This document shows positions 11,011 to 17,951 of a stretch of 33,559 nucleotides of DNA, piece by piece (the first letter of the stretch is position 1; each line of letters begins with the position of its first letter). The notes under the pieces were generated by a model. The model was not told where the DNA came from. It was given only the letters and a program-made list of their open reading frames with translations, and did not search any database. The DNA is from Gemmataceae bacterium (GTDB taxonomy: Bacteria > Planctomycetota > Planctomycetia > Gemmatales > Gemmataceae), in assembly GCA_009692005.1 (NCBI GenBank), contig SHZZ01000039.1, positions 1 to 33,559 on the forward strand, in the 5' to 3' direction. The translations under genes and the position numbers were made by a program.

Positions 11011-13281
11011 ATGAGCAGCCAAACCACAGAACCTGCAAACTCGTTGCTTTTAACTTTGGAAGAAACCAGCAAGCTGGTTTCCCACAGCCACGATCCAGGA
11101 GACACCCTGGGCAACATCGTGGAGTTGGTTTCCACGCGCTTTAAAACCGATGTTTGTTCAGTGTACTTTCTTGAATCTGCCAGAAACGAATTAGTGCTTG
11201 GCGCCACGGTGGGGTTGCGAAAAGATTCCATTGGAAAAATCCGTTTAAAAATACAAGAGGGCCTGGTTGGACTTGTAGCGGAAACGATTCGGCCGGTCAT
11301 GGTGGAAAACGCCTTTTCCCATCCGAGGTTCAAGTATTTTCCCGAATCGGGAGAAGACCCTTTCCATACTTTTCTTGGCGTGCCTTTGATCAAGGCTGGG
11401 TCGCTGATCGGTGTCTTGGTGGTTCAAACAATTGACCCGCGAATTTTTTCTGGGGATGAAATTCGAACGCTTGTTGCAGTGGGCAGCCAGGTCGCCACCA
11501 TCGCCGGCGATGCCAGGCTGCTGGCGCAGTTAATGGCGGCAACCCACGGTAATGGTGGCCCAGCCCTGGCGGAAAACCGGGAATATCCGGCCCGACTTTT
11601 GAGCATGGGGGTGGGGGTAGGCAGTTCTTTCGCTTTGGACCGCCTTGAGGAATGGAGGCAAACCGCACCGAAGGTCTCGCTGGGAAAAGTTCAGGAATGG
11701 GAACGGTTAAAAAAGGCCATGGATCGGTCGCGGATCGACTTGATTTCCATGGGGAAAAAAATCGGCGAGATGGTGGGCCAGGACCATGGCGCCATTCTTG
11801 ACGCTCAGTTGATGATCCTGCAAGATCGCACTATTGAGCGGGATTTGGACGAAAAACTCCAGGGCGGCTTGTCTGCGGAATTAGCCTTGATTGAGACTCT
11901 GGACCGTTATGTCGCTGCTTTTCACCGAATTCAGGCGCCGTTCTTTCAAGAGCGGGTTTTCGACATCAAGGATGTCTTTCTCCGAGTCTTGTGGCATTTG
12001 CGGCCGGAAAAAAAGAACCCGACCGGGGAAAACAGGGTGGTCCTGGTTTGCAAGGAAGCTTCAGTGATGGAACTTTTTTCCGTCAGCCCGGAAAACCTTG
12101 GCGGAGTGATTGTCGAAAAGGGCGGGCCCGAGTGCCATGCCGCTATTCTGGCCCGGGCCTTGGGTATTCCCATGGTGCAACTGGGGGAAGGATTTCAGGA
12201 TTGCCTTTATCCCGGGCGGACCTTGATGATTGACGGCCCCCGTTCCCGGGTTGTGATTGAACCCCTCGACGCGCAGGTGCTTTCCTCCATGCCGGAAATT
12301 CTGGTCCTGGAACCGCTGCCCAAGGGTTTGAAAATTTCGACAAATGCCCCGAAGGTTTATGTGAATATCAATTTGCTCTGGGAAGTTCCCACGGCTTTGC
12401 ACCTGGGCGCTGACGGGGTTGGACTGTTTCGCAGCGAATTCATGCTCCTGGCAAGAAGGATGGTTCCCACCGAAGAGGAACAACACGCCCTGTATTGGAA
12501 ACTGCTGCGAAATATGCAAGGCAAGCCCACAACCATCCGCACTTTCGATCTGCGGCCGGACAAACTGGCTTCCTTCTCCGATATCGGTGGAGCGGCGGCA
12601 AAAGCCTACGATTGGCGCATGGTGCTCGAGTCCCCGCCATTGCAAAAATTATTTTTAGAACAGCTCCGGGCCCTCATGCGCGCGGGGATACATGGGCAGC
12701 CAAAAATCATGATTCCCCTGGTGGGATCCACGGAGATCTTGGAATTTGTTCTGAAAAGCTATAAGGAAGCCCGCGAATCATTGGGAGTGGAAACCAGGGA
12801 ATTCAATCCCGACATACCCCTGGGGCTCATGGTGGAAACCGCCGCCGCCGTTACCTTGATGGGATTCTGGTCGGCACAGGCAAATTTTTTCGCCTTGGGT
12901 ACCAATGATTTATTCTCCTCCGTCACCGGGCTCGACCGCAATGATGAATCCTGCGCCGGGCTCTGCGACCATTGCCACCCGGGATTTTTGCGCATTGTGG
13001 CCCAGGCTATTCAATCAGCCAAGAAATCAGGCAAGCCAATCACGGTATGCGGGGAAATGGCGGCTGATCCCGTGGGTACGGTTTTCCTGGCGGCATTCGG
13101 CGTGGATTCCCTGAGTGTAGCGGTACCGAGATTGAACTCAGTTCGCCGCACCCTGGCCGCGATGGATTGGGACAAGGCCCGGGCCTTCACACAGGAATTC
13201 CCTAGCCTCCATCATGCGGCGGAAATAAGAAAAAAATTAATCGGGGTGCTGGATTGCATTGCCCCGGAAAAGAAATCTTGA
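11011..13281 (+). CDS. ptsP: Phosphoenolpyruvate-protein phosphotransferase with GAF domain (enzyme I-Ntr, PtsP)
   Basis: PtsP takes phosphate from PEP onto an active-site histidine and passes it to an HPr/NPr protein, classically in the nitrogen-related PTS. The 756-residue protein has an N-terminal GAF domain (about 15-175), expected to sense a small molecule. A helical HPr-binding region and the phosphohistidine swivelling domain follow, with His376 in GGPECHAAILAR. The C-terminal PEP-binding barrel contains LFRSEFMLL, GTNDL and Cys680 in VCGEMAADP. The length fits PtsP (about 750) rather than sugar-PTS enzyme I (about 575). The usual TSH around the active histidine is ECH here. The ATG has AAGGA 5 nt upstream. 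No HPr or EIIA gene is nearby. The stop lies 4 bp from the 3' end of a convergent tRNA. Confidence 0.93.
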   Translation: MSSQTTEPANSLLLTLEETSKLVSHSHDPGDTLGNIVELVSTRFKTDVCSVYFLESARNELVLGATVGLRKDSIGKIRLKIQEGLVGLVAETIRPVMVENAFSHPRFKYFPESGEDPFHTFLGVPLIKAGSLIGVLVVQTIDPRIFSGDEIRTLVAVGSQVATIAGDARLLAQLMAATHGNGGPALAENREYPARLLSMGVGVGSSFALDRLEEWRQTAPKVSLGKVQEWERLKKAMDRSRIDLISMGKKIGEMVGQDHGAILDAQLMILQDRTIERDLDEKLQGGLSAELALIETLDRYVAAFHRIQAPFFQERVFDIKDVFLRVLWHLRPEKKNPTGENRVVLVCKEASVMELFSVSPENLGGVIVEKGGPECHAAILARALGIPMVQLGEGFQDCLYPGRTLMIDGPRSRVVIEPLDAQVLSSMPEILVLEPLPKGLKISTNAPKVYVNINLLWEVPTALHLGADGVGLFRSEFMLLARRMVPTEEEQHALYWKLLRNMQGKPTTIRTFDLRPDKLASFSDIGGAAAKAYDWRMVLESPPLQKLFLEQLRALMRAGIHGQPKIMIPLVGSTEILEFVLKSYKEARESLGVETREFNPDIPLGLMVETAAAVTLMGFWSAQANFFALGTNDLFSSVTGLDRNDESCAGLCDHCHPGFLRIVAQAIQSAKKSGKPITVCGEMAADPVGTVFLAAFGVDSLSVAVPRLNSVRRTLAAMDWDKARAFTQEFPSLHHAAEIRKKLIGVLDCIAPEKKS

Positions 13282-13285
13282 TCAG

Positions 13286-13369
13286 TGCCGAAGAGAGGAC
13301 TCGAACCTCCACTCCCTTACGAGAACTAGCTCCTGAAGCTAGCGCGTCTGCCAGTTCCGCCACTTCGGC
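13286..13369 (-). tRNA. tRNA-Leu (anticodon CAG)
   Basis: Read on the minus strand, an 84-nt class II tRNA can be folded. The acceptor arms are GCCGAAG and CTTCGGC with discriminator A. The D-arm contains the AACTGGCAGACGC consensus of leucine tRNAs. The anticodon stem is CTAGC/GCTAG around the loop TTCAGGA, giving CAG, which decodes CUG. There is a long variable arm, and a T-arm with TTCGAGT. The CCA end is not encoded. The 3' end is only 4 bp from the ptsP stop on the other strand. Confidence 0.96.
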
Positions 13370-13431: not shown

Positions 13432-14304
13432 TTATTTTCCCAAGCCAGGTTCAATGGGAAGAGGGTTGTCAGTTCGAAAAGACGGTTTTCGCGCCACCAG
13501 GGAAAAATCCCCGAAAAACCACGGGTCTGGTTGGCAATTGAACCGGGTTAATTCCCGGTCGTCTGCCTGCCATTCCTCTTCGGCCAGGAAAAGACCGGCA
13601 AAATTGGCCTTGGCAGGAATTTCCAAGTGGCAGAAATTCCCTTCCGACTGGATGGGAATGTTGCTCAAAATCTCCCGGCGTAAAAACCGGAAGGGCAACA
13701 ACGGATCGTGAAATTTCAAGCCAAAAACCCAATCGGCAACCCATGCAGGAAACCTTTCCCGAAGCCGCTGGGGGCCCAGTATTTTCCCCATGGGAAAGCT
13801 TAGCAAAACTCTCTTGAATAACCCTGCGCCCAAGTGAACCATCCGCATCCAAAACGAGTAATTCCGCATGACTCTGCACAACCCGGCCAAGTGGGCTTTA
13901 TCCATGGTTTTTCGCAAACGGTCGAAAGTCTTTTCTTGAACCATCCCAGGATGGCCGGTGGTGTAAAAAAGCAAACCATGCTGGCAAATCTCGAAGGCTT
14001 TTCGCAGAGCAGAACCAGGGCCAGAATAAACGCCCGGGATCCATCGGATGGCATAACCACTTCCTTCAGGTGGCCCTGGTATTGATTCCTCCGGTTTGCA
14101 AGTGGCTTTGGGGTCCACTCTTACCCCGATCATTTCAAAGTCGGAAAAACGCTTGGAAAGAAGGTCGGCCCAACGCTTCAGCGTCTGCGGCAGGGTGGCA
14201 TTTTCACCGGGTAAAACCAGAAATATCGCACTGAGTGGCAATTTAGAAACTGGAGCCAAAGATTGGTCATTTTCCCGTTGTGATTGCATGAACAGATTCA
14301 ACAT
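13432..14304 (-). CDS. GT2-fold protein lacking catalytic acidic motifs (dolichyl-phosphate-mannose-synthase-like)
   Basis: This 290-residue protein follows the layout of polyprenyl-phosphate glycosyltransferases of family GT2. It has a VLPGENATL start (29-37, normally VLPAYNE), a DFEMIGVRV strand (55-63) and GPGSALRKAFE (95-105). Its C-terminal part VFGLKFHDPLLPFRFLRREIL (193-213, given as positions) and IPIQSEGNFCHLEI resemble the normal 'D-FKLFRR' and 'IPIQS-G-F-H-EI' blocks. The residues that bind nucleotide-sugar and metal are changed. The usual DDGS region is VDPKA, and the expected DGD after FYT is TGH (116-118). It may therefore be a non-catalytic or unusual relative. There is no C-terminal membrane anchor. 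It overlaps the end of the GT39 gene by 38 bp, though a second ATG at 14289 is possible. The function is unproven. Confidence 0.7.
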   Translation of the reverse strand: MLNLFMQSQRENDQSLAPVSKLPLSAIFLVLPGENATLPQTLKRWADLLSKRFSDFEMIGVRVDPKATCKPEESIPGPPEGSGYAIRWIPGVYSGPGSALRKAFEICQHGLLFYTTGHPGMVQEKTFDRLRKTMDKAHLAGLCRVMRNYSFWMRMVHLGAGLFKRVLLSFPMGKILGPQRLRERFPAWVADWVFGLKFHDPLLPFRFLRREILSNIPIQSEGNFCHLEIPAKANFAGLFLAEEEWQADDRELTRFNCQPDPWFFGDFSLVARKPSFRTDNPLPIEPGLGK

Positions 14305-15838
14305 GGTTGTCAGGGATCAATTCCACAAATACAAAGGGACGGCTAAAACCTTTTGTCTCGTTTTCTAGACGGGAATACCTTTCACGAACAAGGCATCCAG
14401 GCAATTTTTCTTGCAGGTGATTATAATCCTTTCCGGGCACGATCAGGTAACGGATACTTCCCAATCGTGCGTTTTCCGCCAAGGCATCCCACCCGGCGAC
14501 CGAACCCACAGGCGCGCCGCAATGAAACGCCAGGGCGTGCATTTCCGAATTGAAAAACCAGATTTTCTCCGTGGTGATTTCCCGAATTCTCCTGGCGGGG
14601 GATTTCATTTCCCGGTGAGGCTCCAACAGGGGCAGATAGCGATCTACGAACCCCCACCAGGAAATACTGAATACCAGCAAGGTGGCCACAACAGCCAATT
14701 TCCAACCGTTTTCCGACCTGGAAAGAAATCGCCATTGATTTTGCTTGGCGCCTATCCAGCCTCCAAGAAAAAGGGCAGCGCCCGGGTAGGCGGGCAATAG
14801 GTAATCGGCCCTTTTATAACTGACCAACGAAAGGACCGTGAACATTGCGCAAAGCCAAACCAGTCCAAAGCGTTCCATTGGGCCGCACGAACTCAGCCCC
14901 CTTTTCAAACTTTGATAAAGGGCAAAGCAAAGCAAAGGAGACCAGGGCAGAAAATCCAAAGGAAACTGGTAAAAATAAAATCCCCAAGGGTGGGAACGCA
15001 AGGCGCCATTTCCCAAGGCCCGGTTCCAATGATGGTAGCCCAGGAATTCCTGAAAAAAGACTCCTTGGCTTTCCCATTCCAGCCAAAGAAAGAACAAACA
15101 AGAAAGGAAAACCACAACCGCCAAGCCAAGTGGCAAGCGAAGAGTTTTCACCCCTGTTTTCCACAACCTATCGCGCCAAGTCGACTGAGAGCATTCTTCC
15201 CCAACCACCAGGCATAATCCCAGGAGAACGGGAACCGCAAGGGCGAGGGCAATCAACCCCTTCAGGAAAACTCCCAGGAGAAGGAAAACATAAGTCCCGA
15301 CAACCCAACCTCCTTTACCCTGGCGGTTTTGTTTAGCCAAAAAGGCACAAGCCAGGGAGCAAGTGATAAAAAAAGTCAGGGTCATGTCCATGCGGCCGAT
15401 GCGCCCCAGCCAAGTAAAATGAATTGCAGTGGCCAAAATCAGCCCGGAACAAATCCCTGTCAGCCCGCCGTGAAACCTGAATCCAAGGTAACCAATCAAG
15501 ATTACCGTGGCGGAAGCTGCCAATGCCGAGGGAAGCCGAACGGAAAGTGCGTCGGTTTCTCCCCCGCGAAGCCAGGAAATGGCGGCAACAAACCAATAAT
15601 ACAAAGGTGGTTTCTGAAGTTCTTCCCGCCCATCGAGGATTTTGGGAAAAATCCCGCCGTCTTGGAGCAAACTATTGGCATCCATGGCGGCTCGGGCTTC
15701 ATGGCTGCTCCAAAAATCCCGCGTGCTCAAGTGATGAAAAAAAAGAAAGTAAAACCCCAAGAGCGCCGCGGCCAGCAAGAAGATGTCCATCTTCCGGATT
15801 TTTTTTACCGCACCCGGCAGCAGGAAGGCTCCATCCAT
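14267..15838 (-). CDS. GT39/ArnT-like membrane glycosyltransferase family protein
   Basis: This 523-residue integral membrane protein of the PMT/ArnT superfamily moves, in characterised relatives, a sugar from a polyprenyl-phosphate carrier to a lipid or protein on the outer face of the inner membrane. It has TM1 at about 18-36, then a periplasmic loop with RDFWSSHEARAAMDA (40-54) and QKPPLYYW (75-82). These correspond to the PDE-x-R and EKP-x3-YW blocks of ArnT. About ten more membrane helices and a soluble C-terminal domain (about 410-523) follow. The catalytic Asp of the DE motif is His46 here, with Glu47 kept. The ATG at 15838 was chosen because GGGAAAG precedes it and it sits 16 bp after the ABC gene. 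The frame is open further upstream inside that gene. The sugar and acceptor are unknown. Confidence 0.85.
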   Translation of the reverse strand: MDGAFLLPGAVKKIRKMDIFLLAAALLGFYFLFFHHLSTRDFWSSHEARAAMDANSLLQDGGIFPKILDGREELQKPPLYYWFVAAISWLRGGETDALSVRLPSALAASATVILIGYLGFRFHGGLTGICSGLILATAIHFTWLGRIGRMDMTLTFFITCSLACAFLAKQNRQGKGGWVVGTYVFLLLGVFLKGLIALALAVPVLLGLCLVVGEECSQSTWRDRLWKTGVKTLRLPLGLAVVVFLSCLFFLWLEWESQGVFFQEFLGYHHWNRALGNGALRSHPWGFYFYQFPLDFLPWSPLLCFALYQSLKRGLSSCGPMERFGLVWLCAMFTVLSLVSYKRADYLLPAYPGAALFLGGWIGAKQNQWRFLSRSENGWKLAVVATLLVFSISWWGFVDRYLPLLEPHREMKSPARRIREITTEKIWFFNSEMHALAFHCGAPVGSVAGWDALAENARLGSIRYLIVPGKDYNHLQEKLPGCLVRERYSRLENETKGFSRPFVFVELIPDNHVESVHAITTGK

Positions 15839-15854: not shown

Positions 15855-17951
15855 TCAGGCGGATATTTTTCGACCATGCATCTCGAACAATCTCTGGTAG
15901 TGGGGACTGGTTTTGAGTAATTCCTGCTGGGTTCCCACGGCAACAATGCCCCCTCCATCCAGAACGACAATGCGATCAGCGATTTCCAGAGTGTTCAGGC
16001 GATGGGTGATGACAAAGGAAGTCCTTCCTTTGAGAAACTCGCGCATAACTTGGTGGATCAACGCTTCACTTTCCGGGTCGGACTGGCTGGTAAACTCATC
16101 CAGGATCAAGATGCTGGGATCGCGAAGGATGGCCCGGGCAAGTGCAATTCTTTGCTTTTGTCCACCGGACAATTTGCTGCCCCCTTCTCCAACCAGAGTT
16201 TCATACCCTTTGGGAAAGCGGGAAATAAAATCCTGAGCATGGGCATGGACCGCCGCCGCTTCCACTTTTTCTCTCGATGCCCCACGGGTTCCGTAAGCAA
16301 TGTTGTTAAAAATCGTGTCGTCAAAAAGAACGGTTTCTTGCGTTACGATACCCAGCCGCTGGCGGATGCTACGCAAGTTGATTTTGCGCAAGTCTTCGCC
16401 TTGAATCAGCACTGTTCCATGATCTGGATCATAAAACCTGGGAATTAAACCCAGGAGCGTGCTTTTGCCCGAACCGTTATGGCCCAGGAATGCCACCGTT
16501 TCGCCTTCATAAATGGACAGGTTGATGTTGGTCAAAATTGGCCGTCCCGGGTCATAACTAAAGCAAACTCCGCGGAACTCGATCAAAGGTGTTTTGGGTT
16601 TTCCCACGACATTTTCATCTTGGGTCACCCGAGGATTCCTGGAGGACTCCAAATTGAGGCCATACTCCGACCGAACTAATCGGGGTCCTTCCGTGTTCGG
16701 CGTCACTCGCGGTTGTTTATCCATGAAATGAAAAATCCGGTCTGCAGCAGCGCATCCTGACTGAATTTTCGTAAAAACACTCGACAATTTCCTCACGGGA
16801 TCGGCAACGGCCGCCAGCAAAACATAAAGTTGCAGAAGCGATTCTGGTTCCAACGGCTGGTGGCTCATCCGCATGCCAAACAACATGGTTTCTTTGTTTA
16901 AGACCAGGTAAGACCCGGCCAGCAAGGCGGCAGCAACAGCGGCCATGCCAAGCACCTCAATAATGGGGCTGGCGGCAGCGTCAATATTTACCACGATCAT
17001 CGACCGTTTGTAGTAATCCAAAGTGGCAGCGCGGAATTTCCGCCTTTCATAAGGCTCCATCGTGTAGCTTTTGACAACCTTAATTCCCTGAAAGGTTTCC
17101 TGGAGAATTTTGTAAATACTCGACATACGCTCCAGGAGTTTTCGAGTGGCAAGTTTCATCATGCGGCCGATTTTCCCAAGGATGAAGGCTGCTACAGGCA
17201 CCAGAATAAAAAACACCAGGGTTAGTTGCCAGCTGATGCAGGCTGCGAAAATCACACAACTCAATGCACGCAACGGTTCCGCCACTACCTTCCCAAACAA
17301 AGTCTTGATCCCCGTTCCCACAGCCTCCATTTCATTGGTGAATCGAGCCATCAATTCGCTGGTCCCTTGTTCCCCGAATTGATCCACATCCAAATGCACT
17401 ACATTCCGGTAAAACTTGTTCCGAAAGTCGAACAGAGTCAGGTTGACCACGCTGCCCACCAGCGATTCCTGGAAAAACTCAAACACACATTTGATTAACA
17501 CACCAATCATGACCAGACCCAGGACATAGACCAAAGTCTTGAAACTGTCGGGCGGTAAAAGCGCGTAAATGTATTTCTTTCCCACCAGGTACCAATTCAA
17601 TTGCCTTCGCGCGGAAACCAGTTTGCTTTCCACCTTGACCAGAGAGTTTGTGTTTTCCCGTTTTTGCTGCTCAATGAAGTTGGTGATGGGCTTGCGCTCC
17701 AGGCCGCGGAATTTTTGGGTCAACGCTTCCGAAACGACCTCAATCTCTTCGATTTCCTTTTGGGTTTGGGAAATACATTCATCAATCCATTGATGCGGGC
17801 TCTTATCCGTGTGAAGCAATTTCAAAACTGGGTAAATTGATGTGAAATTCAGGCCCCAAAGCACGGCAGCAAGCAAGGCAAAGAAAAATGATACGCAAAG
17901 CCGAACCCGATAAGGCCAAGCGTAGCGAAGCGCCCTGAGGAAATTCTTCAT
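15855..17951 (-). CDS. ABC exporter, MsbA-like (fused membrane and ATPase domains)
   Basis: This half-size ABC exporter should form a homodimer that flips a lipid or exports a lipophilic molecule across the inner membrane. It has six predicted helices, and an ATPase domain from about 450 with Walker A GHNGSGKST (about 487), signature LSGGQKQR (about 590), Walker B ILILDEFTS (about 613) and the H-loop VITHRL. At 698 residues it is over 100 longer than E. coli MsbA (582). Most of the surplus is a charged, coiled-coil-like stretch of about 90 residues (46-135) between TM1 (about 17-37) and TM2 (about 138-158), which should lie in the periplasm. It is the first gene of a three-gene unit with GT39 and GT2-fold proteins, which suggests a glycolipid or polymer substrate. 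Confidence 0.92.
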   Translation of the reverse strand: MKNFLRALRYAWPYRVRLCVSFFFALLAAVLWGLNFTSIYPVLKLLHTDKSPHQWIDECISQTQKEIEEIEVVSEALTQKFRGLERKPITNFIEQQKRENTNSLVKVESKLVSARRQLNWYLVGKKYIYALLPPDSFKTLVYVLGLVMIGVLIKCVFEFFQESLVGSVVNLTLFDFRNKFYRNVVHLDVDQFGEQGTSELMARFTNEMEAVGTGIKTLFGKVVAEPLRALSCVIFAACISWQLTLVFFILVPVAAFILGKIGRMMKLATRKLLERMSSIYKILQETFQGIKVVKSYTMEPYERRKFRAATLDYYKRSMIVVNIDAAASPIIEVLGMAAVAAALLAGSYLVLNKETMLFGMRMSHQPLEPESLLQLYVLLAAVADPVRKLSSVFTKIQSGCAAADRIFHFMDKQPRVTPNTEGPRLVRSEYGLNLESSRNPRVTQDENVVGKPKTPLIEFRGVCFSYDPGRPILTNINLSIYEGETVAFLGHNGSGKSTLLGLIPRFYDPDHGTVLIQGEDLRKINLRSIRQRLGIVTQETVLFDDTIFNNIAYGTRGASREKVEAAAVHAHAQDFISRFPKGYETLVGEGGSKLSGGQKQRIALARAILRDPSILILDEFTSQSDPESEALIHQVMREFLKGRTSFVITHRLNTLEIADRIVVLDGGGIVAVGTQQELLKTSPHYQRLFEMHGRKISA

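Follow-up and report, generated by a model that had tools for sequence, protein, structure and literature searches.

A candidate GT2-derived pseudoenzyme encoded beside an ArnT-like transferase and an MsbA-like exporter in Gemmatales

Here we describe a gene of a Gemmataceae bacterium, located in the window (the whole 33,559-nucleotide stretch of contig SHZZ01000039.1 that was analysed), whose product we read, with a probability of about 0.5, as a pseudoenzyme derived from a GT2 glycosyltransferase that would hold a (poly)prenyl-phosphate or a phospholipid for the adjoining exporter/ArnT-like module; lipid binding is something we infer from the conserved sequence. The term pseudoenzyme refers to the combination of lost catalytic residues, a predicted fold that is kept and, in the relatives, purifying selection. 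In most of the sampled Gemmatales the family looks like a conserved pseudoenzyme and not like a dying gene. The original prediction, made from the window sequence, had proposed a selective loss of catalysis on a preserved scaffold, with either a regulatory or a lipid-carrier-binding role. The latter role agrees with the invariance of R144 and with the presence of an ArnT-like and an MsbA-like gene next door, both described below, and the results reported here lend no support to the former.

The gene, its predicted fold and its relatives

The features of the window that bear on this reading are collected in Table 1. The likely start of the ArnT-like gene is the ATG at 15790, because the TTG at 15970 with which the listed open reading frame begins falls within the ABC gene. 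Scans for promoters and terminators gave nothing in excess of shuffled sequences. The position of the ptsP-like gene is retained in the closest relatives.

Table 1. Positions of the genes and motifs discussed in the text, counted from the first nucleotide of the window
Feature	Position	Strand	Remarks
MsbA/ABCB-like ABC exporter gene	15855..17951	(-)	First gene of the three-gene module
ArnT-like (PMT_2, GT-C) membrane transferase gene	14267..15790	(-)	Directly upstream of the candidate pseudoenzyme gene; its 3' end overlaps the start of that gene
Candidate GT2-derived pseudoenzyme gene	13432..14304	(-)	290 aa + stop; first ATG 14304, second in-frame ATG 14289
Residues 62-68 (RVDPKAT)	14101..14121	(-)	Corresponds to the VDDGSxD nucleotide-binding motif, with R and V in place of its Asp pair
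Residues 116-118 (TGH)	13951..13959	(-)	Place of the DXD motif; neither Asp present
R144	13873..13875	(-)	Invariant in 95/95 family rows; aligned with GtrB R122
D200	13705..13707	(-)	Invariant in 95/95 family rows
C-terminal conserved block, residues 205-233 (FRFLRREIL ... IPIQSEG ... HLEIPAKA)	13606..13692	(-)	E228, A231 and K232 invariant
C-terminal tail motif, residues 266-276	13477-13509	(-)	Lies past the GT fold
tRNA-Leu	13285-13369	(-)	Downstream of the candidate pseudoenzyme gene
GAF-PtsI (ptsP-like) protein gene	11011-13281	(+)	Adjoins the module

Searched alone, the window protein has no significant match among Pfam, NCBIfam or PDB sequences, and PF00535 (Glycos_transf_2) does not match it at E ≤ 1. 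One homologue each was found at E ≤ 1e-3 in 29 of 41 genomes (its own and 40 relatives), and a family profile was built from 26 of these 29 homologues, with L035-L037 omitted. Sixteen of the 26 members match PF00535 at E ≤ 0.1, and among PDB sequences the profile matches ArnC (2.6e-16), GtrB (3e-14), chondroitin synthase (6e-11) and dolichyl-phosphate mannose synthase (DPMS; 3.2e-10). An AlphaFold2 model of the window protein, generated from an alignment of 24 sequences, has a pLDDT of 83.9 and a pTM of 0.84. Structural comparison of this predicted model returns the P. furiosus DPMS (PfDPMS) as the best solved match (Z 19.7, rmsd 3.2, 216 aligned) and gives ArnC a Z of 18.6, while Foldseek ranks ArnC first (E 2.5e-9). 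The soluble glucosyl-3-phosphoglycerate synthase (GpgS) reaches a Z of 18.3, on a par with ArnC, so the structural likeness is not specific to lipid-using enzymes. The fold predicted for the window protein is GT-A, near those of DPMS and ArnC.

Sequence identity between the window protein and its relatives is low, at 21-28% in one alignment and 31% at best in the tree alignment. A C-terminal transmembrane helix was sought in the window protein and not found, the top 19-residue hydropathy past residue 240 being 0.05, and the C-terminal 19-residue hydropathy exceeds 1.6 in one of 81 family rows. DPM1-type enzymes are likewise not known to have C-terminal transmembrane helices. When residues 149-170 of the window protein were tested as an amphipathic helix at the membrane surface, their hydrophobic moment was not significant, being matched or exceeded by 0.38 of shuffles; the corresponding fraction was under 0.05 in three of the eight family rows tried.

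A family-level match was found by score in 91 of 102 Gemmatales genomes, and 88 of these were also recovered by alignment, the matches in G052, G081 and G103 lying outside it. At E ≤ 1e-3 every one of the 102 genomes is matched by the family profile, which catches canonical GT2s as well; since the scores of family and canonical proteins overlap near 120 bits, membership was decided by motif and alignment. Eleven genomes have no match above the canonical-GT2 level; the two of those matches that were inspected (L186 and L187, from genomes G005 and G058) carry DAD, cluster with canonical GT2s and were excluded from the family counts. The 88 aligned Gemmatales rows are made up of 81, window included, and a further 7, and together with 7 homologues from other orders they give 95 family rows. 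Homologues in open frames of 591-1301 aa, which might be read as fusion proteins, were taken to be chance stop-free frames in G+C-rich DNA.

The original prediction had advised a search for a catalytically normal paralogue, and the genome of the window proved to contain such proteins with their DXD intact: it has 17 matches to PF00535, including ArnC-like proteins with intact MDGDLQ, LDADLQ and MDADLQ motifs, although the NCBIfam ArnC cut-off is reached by none of its ArnC-like paralogues. The presence of GT2 paralogues with intact motifs makes it plausible that a normal enzyme supplies lipid-linked sugar within this cell. The top family-profile score among the compared GT2s of this genome (125 bits) belongs to a fused GT2-PMT protein in an 815 aa frame (G000:C31:74117-75877; L194, L201), in which TDADSQ and GESK are intact. 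Frames of ~740-920 aa with a GT2 match occur in other genomes too, and one of them (841 aa, genome G152) also matches PMT.

The donor side and the putative lipid-phosphate side

In the window copy, T116-G117-H118 takes the place of the DAD found in ArnC and in the canonical paralogues, R62-V63 aligns with the two Asp of VDDGS, and the R..G.SK acceptor loop is missing, all of which bears out the view that the donor and metal motifs of this copy are gone. The suggestion that TGH might be an invariant site did not hold up, as the position is variable, with PLL or PCQ in the closest relatives and a family consensus of P-L-D. Among the 88 Gemmatales rows, the first Asp of the DXD occurs in one (L145, with Arg at the third position), the second in 58, the Gln of DADLQ in 15 and a VDD-like pair in 49. 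The acceptor loop occurs in none of the 88, versus 6 of 8 canonical comparison rows, which have all four Asp in 8/8 and the Gln in 7/8. Orthologues mostly carrying an intact DXD had been named in advance as the sign of a merely decaying copy; both Asp were found together in 0 of the 88 rows.

The extent of the loss differs between members. We call donor-poor the 26 of 88 rows in which the VDD-like pair, the second Asp and the Gln are all missing, and donor-null the 14 of 88, window copy among them, which have lost all five donor residues, meaning no acidic residue at the five positions, no Asn at the first VDD place and no Gln at the Gln place. Of the 26 donor-poor rows, 12 still have an Asp or Glu in at least one of the five places. 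Parsimony over 103 rows gives 11 changes for the donor-poor state and 6 for the donor-null state, but because many forks are weakly supported we describe the erosion of the donor site as repeated and attach no number to it. Two of the 7 homologues from other orders, both from family f5 of the class, are acidic at the first position (L176 has Asp; L177 has Glu, with Asp at the third). The homologues of family f3 (L171-L174, L178) have largely lost the donor motifs.

In the PfDPMS study (PMC5526996), the metal is held by the second Asp and the Gln, the sugar is contacted by the first Asp and by R117, and the donor is locked by R202 and K208, which lie in the acceptor loop; the D89A and D91A variants show residual activity. 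The window copy has lost the counterparts of all the donor, metal and acceptor-loop residues described there, and many relatives miss only some of them. Given the residual activity of D89A and D91A, and given that R117 is also at the sugar, the loss of Asp residues is no proof of inactivity. Moreover, since the residues that hold the metal in the DPMS account persist in 58 (second Asp) and 15 (Gln) of 88 rows, some members of the family may have kept their activity. The claim that the metal motif is gone is therefore sound for the window copy and the other donor-null rows, and has to be given up for the family as a whole.

These observations bear directly on the main alternative, namely that the protein is still an active glycosyltransferase whose donor site is unusual, having one Asp or none and perhaps being metal-free, and that it glycosylates a lipid which the ABC exporter then flips. 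The residual activity of the DPMS variants is in its favour, as are the 37 of 88 rows that combine a VDD-like pair with the second Asp, with the Gln besides in 8 more; set against these are the near-absence of the first DXD Asp (1/88), the lack of any intact DXD or acceptor loop, and the 14 donor-null rows to which the window copy belongs. We regard this alternative as somewhat improbable overall; it is a real one for members with half of the donor site intact, and less likely for the window copy.

The residues R144, D200, E228, A231 and K232 are identical in all 95 family rows. In the alignment of the profile with PDB sequences R144 falls on GtrB R122, the numbering of which follows from 94-DADLQD-99 as given in PMC5526996; the DPMS authors consider GtrB R122 the probable counterpart of PfDPMS R117, which is a ligand for the phosphate of the carrier lipid. 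At the level of sequence, then, a putative lipid-phosphate Arg of the DPMS/GtrB type is present in 95/95 rows. Conservation of E228, A231 and K232 may instead serve folding.

The C-terminal blocks singled out by the original prediction, FRFLRREIL (residues 205-213), IPIQSEG (216-222) and HLEI (226-229), are indeed kept, with R209 in 87, Q219 in 82 and E228 in 88 of 88 rows. IPIQSEG, though, is specific to this family and not general to polyprenyl-phosphate transferases, the canonical paralogues differing there. The by-eye impression of a well-kept C-terminal part can be quantified by mean pairwise identity in the N-terminal (residues 24-135) and C-terminal (139-245) halves, which is 0.225 and 0.351, respectively, in the donor-poor rows (23 of 26, after omission of three near-copies), 0.391 and 0.443 in the 62 other family rows, and 0.366 and 0.248 in 8 canonical GT2s. 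The tail of the family carries the motif D/E-x-x-x-V-F-x-x-P-x-F, with D/E at 266 in 81/81 rows, P274 in 79/88 and F276 in 88/88.

It is also conceivable, if unlikely, that the protein has been kept as a structural or regulatory partner, a scaffold for protein contacts only that binds no lipid, for example in a hetero-oligomer with a normal ArnC-like GT2 or in docking to the exporter. Several chains are present in the ArnC and GtrB entries, normal paralogues exist in the genome and F276 of the tail is kept throughout, all of which would suit such a partner, but the invariance of R144 in 95/95 rows is left unexplained by protein contacts alone.

Gene neighbourhood and selection in Gemmatales

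At 61 of 88 loci the same strand carries an ArnT-like gene no more than 2.5 kb upstream, with a median domain gap of 51 bases, and an MsbA-like exporter lies within 5 kb at 66 of 88, the two occurring together at 57. Neither was found at 18 loci, five of which have less than 4.5 kb of upstream sequence. Gene order is conserved, with the exporter followed by the ArnT-like gene and then the candidate pseudoenzyme, and in five of the closest relatives (L128, L131, L135, L137 and L142) synteny extends both ways, from tatC to at least aroK. The ArnT-like gene also precedes the homologue in both of the loci read from family f5 of the class, whereas the five homologues read from family f3 are without an ArnT-like neighbour, and their genomes give no match above 155 bits.

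Twenty-five genomes have a homologue without an adjacent ArnT-like gene, and in 11 of these a cassette-type ArnT-like gene lies elsewhere, with an exporter alongside in 10 and the eleventh at a contig end. No cassette-type ArnT-like protein above ~190 bits was found in the other 14 of these 25 genomes (three of them less than 90% complete), which means that the homologue cannot be a subunit of ArnT only. The idea of a pure ArnT subunit is weakened further by G028, where an exporter and an ArnT-like gene are present and the homologue is absent beside them despite several kb of unbroken downstream sequence. A search of 18 ArnT-like loci with the family profile found no homologue; in several cases the contig breaks off inside the ArnT-like gene or shortly past it. 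In each of the 14 genomes where no cassette ArnT-like protein was found, the copy falls outside the donor-poor group, and an exporter is upstream in 9 of them; donor-poor rows of known status have a cassette ArnT-like gene, adjoining or elsewhere in the genome, in 25/25 cases. This association (Fisher p 0.008, confounded by kinship) is a further point in favour of the active-enzyme alternative.

In ArnT the Asp of the PDEGR motif is catalytic. The cassette ArnT-like profile matches the solved ArnT 5ezm with an E of 3.8e-41, and the neighbour is a GT-C transferase in which His replaces the first-loop Asp: it has a SHEAR-type motif, with H90 and E91 of the 567-aa ORF in 55/55 of the rows that have the residue (58 rows in total), at the site where 5ezm reads PDEGR and where PDETR or PQEAR stands in other PMTs from this genome. 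The module may have altered chemistry on both the pseudoenzyme and the ArnT-like sides.

Nei-Gojobori dN/dS values for 14 close pairs lie within 0.085-0.263 in 12 cases, the remaining two being 0.40 and 0.47 (the latter at a dS of 0.04), and the values for five pairs out of donor-null clades span 0.15-0.26. All of these were measured on relatives, the nearest relative of the window gene being only 31% identical to it. The ArnT-like neighbour gives 0.10-0.36 (nine pairs), and the exporter value is below that of the candidate pseudoenzyme in 12 of 12 usable pairs, disregarding that of L080-L081, which came from 37 codons of another ABC gene. Most dN/dS values indicate that the relatives are under purifying selection, donor-null clades included. 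Together with the absence of an intact DXD from all 88 rows, this supports the proposed loss of the donor side on a kept scaffold, as a trait of the family and not decay. That the window copy is decaying and functionless is very improbable: all five scored donor residues are gone and its identity to relatives is low, but its ORF is intact, family-level matches occur in 91 of 102 genomes, and distribution, invariant columns over 95 rows, selection in relatives and conserved gene order led us to reject the decay of a single copy.

We therefore prefer to describe the protein as a lipid-holding pseudoenzyme, and suggest how it might operate. On the simplest account, a GT2 would once have made lipid-linked sugar for the module, or in some lineages would still do so; in this lineage it would have turned into a pseudoenzyme with the lipid-phosphate side retained, acting at the cytoplasmic face of the MsbA-like exporter and ArnT-like GT-C module. 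The retained half would bind the phosphate and first isoprenes of the carrier lipid, or else the exported lipid by its phosphorylated head, and might pass that lipid, or a glycosylated form of it supplied by a normal GT2 elsewhere, to its membrane neighbours, or gate them. A more specific and tentative version, which we consider possible, is that the dead GT2 serves as a chaperone dedicated to the carrier lipid, receiving a polyprenyl-phosphate sugar, or else the phospho-lipid to be exported, at the cytoplasmic face and handing it on to either the exporter or the ArnT-like enzyme. If so, a whole bacterial order would split the making of a lipid-linked sugar from the holding of it, and the donor sites, eroded repeatedly, would form a natural series leading from an enzyme to a lipid-binding subunit. 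The family points to an envelope-lipid module in Gemmatales, and its graded series from half a donor site to none, within one pathway context, makes the step from enzyme to pseudoenzyme directly testable.

Comparison with known systems

Searches of the open-licence PubMed Central literature yielded no dead glycosyltransferase of the ArnC/DPMS type, and an exporter/ArnT-like envelope-lipid module in Gemmatales is not named in the titles or abstract openings of the Gemmata and Planctomycetes papers that they retrieved. Where the retrieved papers use the term pseudo-glycosyltransferase, they refer to VldE and the acarbose enzymes, which are a different thing.

ArnC, the undecaprenyl-phosphate Ara4FN transferase, is the pathway partner of ArnT. 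The family resembles it (PDB 9bhc, 9bhe, 8vxh, 9hwj) in that ArnC is the top profile match, with a GT-A fold, an Arg at the same place and, here, an ArnT-like neighbour; unlike ArnC, the window protein has no DXD, VDD, acceptor loop or hydrophobic C-terminal stretch. The P. furiosus DPMS (PDB 5mlz) is the best structural match, and R144 is tied to its R117 through GtrB R122, but its D89, D91, Q93 and R202/K208 loop (PMC5526996) have no counterpart in the window copy. GtrB sll0501 (PDB 5ekp) is close in profile score (3e-14) and shares the aligned Arg, but unlike the window copy it carries the DADLQD motif (PMC5526996). A glycosyltransferase working with a partner protein has a parallel in EryCIII and EryCII, although EryCII is a P450 homologue (PMC3391682) and not a dead GT2. 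The nearest comparison within the genome itself is the fused GT2-PMT protein, the closest of its compared GT2s to the family profile, which suggests that a normal GT2 is paired with a PMT domain in this organism; unlike the module described here, it keeps both DAD and the GESK loop intact and joins its two parts in a single polypeptide.
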